From positions 1 through 49,335 of the forward strand of contig RECH01000250.1 in NCBI GenBank assembly GCA_007694125.1: a stretch of 49,335 nt of DNA, written 5' to 3'. This document shows, piece after piece, positions 41,822 through 43,592 of the stretch. The notes under the pieces were generated by a model. The model worked only from the letters and a program-made list of their open reading frames with translations. It did no database searches and had not been told where the DNA came from. The stretch comes from Leptolyngbya sp. DLM2.Bin15 (GTDB taxonomy: Bacteria; Cyanobacteriota; Cyanobacteriia; RECH01). The translations under genes were made by a program, and so were the position numbers. Position 1 is the stretch's first letter. Every line of letters starts with the position of its first letter.

Positions 41822-42721
41822 CTAATCATCCTTAGGGCCAATTACCATTTGTAGAACCGTTGGATCGCCACCCGCCTCATGGTAGCGATCGGCCCAGTTG
41901 CGAATGACTTCATCTAGTTCATCTAACGCCTGTTCGAGGCGATCGCTGGGAATGTCTAATTCTTCTAAAATGCGAACCACCTTGGGTTGGCGCTCGGCCC
42001 AACCTCGCATGAGCCGGAAATACCGAGCGGTATCTTCCACCATGATGTAGGTGCGCTCTTCTTCATCTGCCGGAGAGTATGAGGCCCGGGTTAGCGCGTA
42101 GAAAGGGAGCCCCCAAGGAGAGTCCACCTTGGTAACCGTGCCGGAGTAAATGAGGCGACGCTTAATATGTTCTGCCAGCGCTTCACTCAACGGTAGGCAG
42201 CGTTCCGACGGCAAGTTTTCCTGCGATCGCATGTGGAGGAACTCAATCACGTCCATAAACTGGAACGAATTGAGGAGTTGGGCGTCAGGAATAACGTCGG
42301 GCAGCTTCTCTTCTATTTGACGTTTTTCATCGGGCGTGAGGCTTGACCCTGAAATGCGATGCTGGCCTGGAACCCATGGATATTGCTCTAGCCACACATA
42401 GGGCAATTGGATCAAATACCGAGGTTCTTGCGACCCCAGCATCTTCAGCAGTTTGCCCTCGGTCAACGCTTGGCGCACTTCCTCAACAATGACCTTGACC
42501 CGCTTGGGCTCAATGTGATGTAAATGACCGGTCATGCGCAGGTTTTGCCCCTGCTCAAGATAGGTCATATAAATCGCACACTTGGCAGCCGTGGCCGCGG
42601 CATCTAAAAAGGCACCGTGCCGATGTCCACTGGTGCGCATGGCGCTGAACGCAAGGTACAGCATAATCTGATCCATTGCGCTGGGACTAAGGTGTTTGAT
42701 CAGGTCAACATCATTGGTCAT
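41822..42721 (-). CDS. hetR: heterocyst differentiation / multicellularity regulator HetR
   Basis: A 299-aa protein, the same length as Anabaena HetR and nearly identical in the first 110 residues ([20 protein letters not shown], then Cys48 in [16 protein letters not shown]). HetR is a DNA-binding dimer that controls differentiation and is inhibited by RGSGR peptides binding its hood domain. Ser152 and Ser179 and hood positions Arg223, Glu253, Glu254, Asp256 and Asp270 are in register with Anabaena numbering; these are positions I recall being linked to activity or PatS binding. The gene occurs in filamentous cyanobacteria with or without heterocysts. patX lies 661 bases upstream on the same strand, and the leader between holds several inverted repeats. 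Confidence 0.97.
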
Positions 42722-42865
42722 TGGATGGACGATCGCAGTAGCGTAGTAACAACAAAAAGTCAGGGCACAAAAGCCTAGGGAAACACTCCATAGACGAGCA
42801 GGTTGACCGACAGCCAGTATTGGGAGCTATCCCCACATACACCGCGACTTCCATGCTCTGCAGCA

Positions 42866-42920
42866 TAGCCGATACACATGATGCGCTAAGAGAGTGCATC
42901 CAGTGTATCGGCTAGCGCAT
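42866..42920 (-). promoter_or_regulatory. interleaved inverted repeats in the hetR leader
   Basis: Arm A TAGCCGATACAC (42866-42877) pairs perfectly with GTGTATCGGCTA (42903-42914). Arm B ATGCGCTA (42881-42888) pairs with TAGCGCAT (42913-42920). The order A-B-A'-B' is that of a pseudoknot or of two alternative hairpins; A' and B' share two bases. It lies 145-199 bases before the hetR start. Confidence 0.65.
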
Positions 42921-43242
42921 GGAGTAGAGCGATTGTAGTTGGAAAGCAACCTACTCAGGGGGGTACCCATTGGATGAGAGCATAGACGCTAGCGGGACAA
43001 AAGGGGAAAGCAACTACGTTCCTGTTCAGCGATCGCTATGCTCTACCGTTAGGATTCCCATCAATATCCTAAGAATCAGCAGTGGGCTAGGAAGATCTGG
43101 ATGTCTGTATGTAGACATCTATTCACCTAGCGAACTGAGAACCGATGCTTCTCTGGAACACCACACTAACGGCATAGCCTGTGGTTAATGACTCCAGAGT
43201 ACCCCTATACTTCCCAAAATAGACTGGAAGATTTGCCTTTTT

Positions 43243-43260
43243 TAGAACAATTTTGTTCTA
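43243..43260. promoter_or_regulatory. palindromic operator candidate between patX and hetR
   Basis: TAGAACAA-TT-TTGTTCTA, perfect 8-bp arms with a two-base centre. There is no T run in the direction of patX transcription, so it is not a terminator. A dimeric regulator site is possible; the protein is unknown. Confidence 0.5.
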
Positions 43261-43382
43261 TTGTTTAGGGGGATGCACTGATGTATTTGCTTTAGTCTAA
43301 CCTCTGCAGTACCAAACAGCACCTAACCCACTCGGAGATTTCTAGCGAGGTCAAGGGTTCTTGAGGATGACATCCACTGGCA

Positions 43383-43592
43383 TTAGGTACATTCTGAAGC
43401 ATCGCGACGACCACTCCCTCGATAGGCAGAATCTTGAGTGTTATAAGTCGCTTGAGATGATGGATTCAACGGTTGGCTGATTGCTGGCTGAGTGGGATAG
43501 AGGTAGACCGATGCACAACTGCTGCTCGTTTCGTTAAAGGGAGTCGCGATCGCAATTAGGGCGCTAGTCGAGAGAAGGACGGCAATAGACAT
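43383..43592 (-). CDS. patX: PatX-type RGSGR peptide precursor
   Basis: A 69-aa protein. It opens with a hydrophobic segment (MSIAVLLSTSALIAIAT) that can act as a signal sequence, has a Ser/Thr/Gln-rich middle, and near the C-terminus contains RGSGR at 43407-43421 in the context SAYRGSGRRDASECT. RGSGR is the pentapeptide core of PatS and HetN that binds HetR. PatX proteins carry a signal peptide and RGSGR close to the C-terminus and occur with hetR in filamentous cyanobacteria. The start is fixed, because an in-frame TGA lies three codons before the ATG. The location upstream of hetR on the same strand strongly supports the call. A processed peptide would be exported and act between cells. 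Confidence 0.9.
   Translation of the reverse strand: MSIAVLLSTSALIAIATPFNETSSSCASVYLYPTQPAISQPLNPSSQATYNTQDSAYRGSGRRDASECT

Follow-up and report, generated by a model that had tools for sequence, protein, structure and literature searches.

In filamentous cyanobacteria, hetR encodes a master regulator of cell differentiation and patX encodes its small inhibitory peptide. The locus described here, from Leptolyngbya sp. DLM2.Bin15, raises the question of whether two such genes lying next to each other form a complete signalling unit. In the window, meaning the whole stretch of 49,335 nucleotides that was analysed, hetR (299 aa) occupies positions 41822-42721 and a 69-aa open reading frame containing RGSGR occupies positions 43383-43592, in tandem on the minus strand and separated by an intergenic region of 661 nt (42722-43382, minus strand). 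The adjacency of the two reading frames, reported in an earlier note that saw in them a morphogen and its receptor, was confirmed at these positions and on this strand. The pair is an ordinary patX-hetR locus, an instance of a known pairing that is both widespread and published, and what may be new here is a TCCTGA variant of the patX promoter and the presence, elsewhere in the genome, of another patX copy not linked to the pair.

Judged from its sequence and that of its relatives, the 69-aa frame is a real gene of the patX type, as the earlier note had proposed. Its product matches the NCBIfam heterocyst_PatX model (NF047413) over residues 5-64 with E=3.2e-4 and 21.4 bits, beneath the curated cut-off of 30. 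In the nearest named relative, from FACHB-471 (L009), PatX scores at the same level (21.3 bits), and the model is therefore weak on this branch of the family; as a whole-genome scan of relatives with this model missed the window's branch, it was not used for judging absence. The protein has a hydrophobic N-terminus, with a stretch at residues 5-15 whose best 11-residue Kyte-Doolittle mean is 2.35, a value that 5 of 150 background frames attain. An A-I-A site is present in this N-terminal part, and no basic residue precedes the hydrophobic stretch. Near the C-terminus lies YRGSGR, followed by the seven-residue tail RDASECT.

Two genomes of the same genus (G001 and G002) keep both the frame and the motif RGSGRRDASECT, so the conservation of frame and RGSGR in relatives that the earlier note had asked about is borne out; in G002, patX sits near the end of a contig other than that carrying hetR. 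The window gene is two codons longer than the congener copies, and this change in length is in-frame. Third codon positions account for most substitutions in the congeners; in the comparison of the N-terminal part with G001 they take 11 of 15, and the last 16 codons, including YRGSGRRDASECT, show synonymous differences only. A genome of the same family (G003) has hetR with no RGSGR frame in the 5 kb upstream of it, and none of its three RGSGR DNA matches of the CGN-AGY type is patX-like.

Additional support comes from the patX leader. A DIF1-like -35 element, TCCTGA (43648-43653, minus strand), is found 61 nt before the patX start codon, followed by a conserved segment, GTATTTGGAATTAGA (43615-43629, minus strand), that would supply the -10 and start-site part of the promoter. 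An exact DIF1 sequence, TCCGGA, is absent near the window pair, and TCCTGA is the common form in the patX leaders of its relatives. All 34 leaders compared have TCC[TG]GA ahead of the patX start (31 with TCCTGA and three with TCCGGA), mostly at 57-69 nt from the chosen start codon; for two leaders with a distance of 40-42 nt, the true start probably lies downstream of the automatically picked ATG. Of 291 cyanobacterial genomes, 22 match a stricter pattern (TCCTGAT, 14-19 nt, GTAWCA, TAGA), each a single time and always with an RGSGR frame downstream; the reversed control had no match. As the pattern was built on patX leaders and evidently has some of the 22 genomes, with identical leaders, among its sources, these matches demonstrate specificity and do not amount to independent discovery in all 22. 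The window leader itself, with TCCTGAC and GTATTT, fails the strict pattern. The sequence GTANNNNGAAYTAGA occurs four times in the window's genome, with TCC[TG]GA 24 nt upstream only in its two patX leaders. A short promoter pattern alone can locate patX genes that curated protein models overlook. An RNA hairpin in the leader was considered and dropped, the consensus fold of 24 leaders containing no pairs and the window dyad lacking significance (p about 0.16). The dyad in question, CCGTATCAG...CTGATACGG, which falls upstream of the patX start and downstream of the DIF1-like element, is strong in the leaders of several relatives, weak in the window (43600-43635), and possibly an operator.

The arrangement was then placed among the best 80 hetR loci of GTDB species, with flanks of up to 8 kb read on both strands. 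In 36 of the 80, a small RG[ST]GR frame precedes hetR on the same strand at 0.3-1.1 kb, and only one other qualifying frame occurred elsewhere in the flanks of these loci, so that the linkage exceeds what chance would give. Published work describes hetR as invariably accompanied by patX (PMC7761841), and in the non-heterocystous Leptolyngbya sp. BL0902 patX and hetR lie side by side and both have been deleted (PMC11298460). Given this recurrence and these descriptions, the arrangement is not a discovery. That the RGSGR frame is merely a chance open frame beside hetR and no gene, a reading to which the low overall protein similarity between relatives and the family score beneath the PatX cut-off lend something, is scarcely credible, being already contradicted by the coding-type substitution pattern and the frame conserved in congeners, and opposed by the promoter element at a fixed distance and by the recurrence on one strand in 36 of these 80 loci.

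The partner gene encodes a full-length HetR that comprises the DNA-binding, flap and hood domains, as seen in comparisons with both a profile and a structure. The protein matches NCBIfam NF009718 over residues 1-299 (E=2.7e-172, above the equivalog cut-off) and aligns over its full length and ungapped with PDB 3qod (E=1.5e-161), and Anabaena-type numbering is therefore valid throughout, as had been claimed from the sequence alone. Contacts with PatS6 are made by E253, E254, D256, D270 and D278, and R223 is the residue of PatS sensitivity (PMC4649674). All six of these hood residues are intact in the window protein, which upholds the further claim that the hood positions for peptide binding are kept, and the DNA-contact positions R62, H69, E71, K73, R74 and K76 (roles likewise from PMC4649674) are all present as well.

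The 661-nt gap between the genes presumably holds promoter sequence for hetR, and it contains blocks conserved with congener G001. A palindrome in the gap, AGAACAAAATTGTTCT (43244-43259, minus strand), differs by one base in the congener (AGAACAAAAATGTTCT) and is possibly a regulator site for hetR. A weak match to the GGGN5CCC core of HetR sites, GGGTACCCCCC, is located at 42958-42968 (minus strand), 247 nt before hetR, and is also found in the congener; as a general feature of hetR upstream regions, this core was rejected, with matches in 6 of 70 such regions against 2.7 expected. A sigma-70 scan returned no promoter-like site, a terminator scan returned one terminator-like site, inside hetR, and an Rfam scan returned a sub-threshold match only. 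Elsewhere in the window, the translations of 46537-47466 and 47691-49103 read like chlL and chlN, the genes for dark protochlorophyllide reductase.

The earlier note had suggested a lineage without heterocysts and proposed a search for nif genes. No nifD above the family cut-off is present in the window's genome, which is estimated to be 99.87% complete, and its sole nifD match scores weakly, as a related reductase subunit would be expected to. In congener G001 a strong nifD exceeds the cut-off (contig C129, 26087-27496; L109), and members of the genus seem to differ in nitrogen fixation. The window's cyanobacterium probably makes no heterocysts. We consider it very improbable that the locus derives from a heterocyst-forming lineage and is a true heterocyst-pattern switch. 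The HetR of two congeners, one of them with nifD, is 100% identical, and this would fit such a switch; the lack of a nifD above the cut-off in a nearly complete genome speaks against it, as does the absence of any hetR locus named for a heterocyst-forming genus among the 36 patX-linked loci of the best 80, with genus judged from record titles.

We therefore regard as the likely reading an ordinary patX-hetR locus of a filamentous cyanobacterium probably lacking heterocysts, with export, processing and inhibition of HetR operating as they do in homologous systems. The DIF1-like promoter, whose TCCTGA lies at -61 relative to the start codon, would drive patX, and transcripts of hetR downstream would arise either by read-through from patX or from a promoter of its own in the 661-nt gap. 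By analogy with homologues, the hydrophobic N-terminus would direct the PatX precursor out of the cell, a peptidase (in Nostoc, PatP) would free a hexapeptide, here probably YRGSGR, and this hexapeptide would occupy the HetR hood and keep HetR from binding DNA; the physiological role, too, is taken from homologues. The sequences themselves establish the two genes, the coding constraint on patX, the conserved promoter element, the linkage in relatives and the intact peptide-contact residues. Against this reading stand the PatX score beneath the cut-off, the N-terminus without a basic region, the BL0902 transcriptomes and the second patX-like gene described below. In Nostoc, PatX has to be exported and processed by PatP, and the peptide HRGTGR (PatX6), whose KD for HetR is 88 nM, prevents HetR from binding DNA (PMC12756182). 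As a change of the N-terminal residue of the hexapeptide was without effect on affinity in the PatS6 structure paper (PMC4649674), tyrosine in place of histidine or glutamate should be tolerated.

Like PatX of Nostoc/Anabaena PCC 7120 (PMC12756182, PMC7761841), the window protein is a small and presumably exported RG(S/T)GR precursor, but the hexapeptide is YRGSGR instead of HRGTGR; moreover, no patX was found near hetR in genera named as heterocystous among the best 80 hetR loci. It shares the inhibitory RGSGR core with PatS (ERGSGR), in which RGSGR forms the last five residues (PMC4649674), whereas in the window protein seven residues follow RGSGR and the N-terminus is hydrophobic. The locus also resembles that of BL0902, which has patX directly upstream of hetR, a predicted DIF1 promoter, no nif cluster, and no patS or hetN found (PMC11298460). 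In contrast to that locus, a 661-nt gap separates the window genes, TCCTGA is the promoter element of this patX and the genome has a second, unlinked patX-like gene; the available text of the BL0902 paper makes no mention of a second patX.

The BL0902 work lends weight to a different view of the pair, namely that PatX acts mainly independently of HetR, with the linkage an ancestral leftover and a hood that fits RGSGR through shared descent only. In that study, transcriptomes of the deletion strains gave no sign that PatX works through HetR, deleting patX alone had the same outcome in the informative gene groups as deleting patX and hetR together, and the authors concluded that the effects of PatX are basically HetR-independent (PMC11298460). 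Accordingly, peptide action on HetR in the window's organism is something that we infer. The retention of RGSGR and of all HetR contact residues, and of the linkage over many loci, argues against HetR-independent action, which we judge unlikely though well short of negligible. Of the earlier description as a morphogen and receptor, the patX-type gene, its linkage to hetR and the intact receptor residues stand, while the role that these words imply is not established outside heterocyst formers, given the conclusion from BL0902, the one non-heterocystous strain in which patX and hetR were deleted (PMC11298460).

Finally, the suggestion that the pair is a self-contained signalling unit does not survive inspection of the rest of the genome. 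A non-exhaustive search for RGSGR-coding DNA, restricted to CGN arginines and AGY serine, found eight sites, two of them patX-like: the window gene and one further frame, on contig C204 (about 10468-10683, minus strand; L124). This second gene is unlinked to hetR and encodes a 71-aa protein with a hydrophobic N-terminus and YRGSGR, with an exact TCCGGA 61 nt before its ATG. It is kept in both congeners (L125, L127) and thus in three congeneric genomes. On the PatX model its protein is non-significant (E=0.29), so that its naming as patX rests on anatomy and promoter. In addition, a HetR-like paralogue with 40% identity to HetR lies on contig C41 (155-1024, plus strand; L128); in a hand alignment, it keeps E253, D270 and D278 and has T254 and G256. 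With a second, unlinked patX-like gene present, the window copy may not be the main source of ligand.

These observations lead us to a tentative proposal, which we hold to be less probable than not, that the DIF1-like promoter (TCCTGAT, about 17 nt, GTAWCA, TAGA) serves patX alone outside heterocyst formers, and that the genus has two patX genes under different control, the neighbour of hetR with TCCTGA and the unlinked copy with canonical TCCGGA, both of which could feed one HetR and perhaps also the C41 paralogue. If true, this would mean that a filament probably lacking heterocysts puts two peptide inputs into its control. PMC11298460 terms the role of HetR and PatX in heterocyst-less filaments a "mystery", and the locus, with two patX copies in its genome, is a well-resolved example that bears on it.
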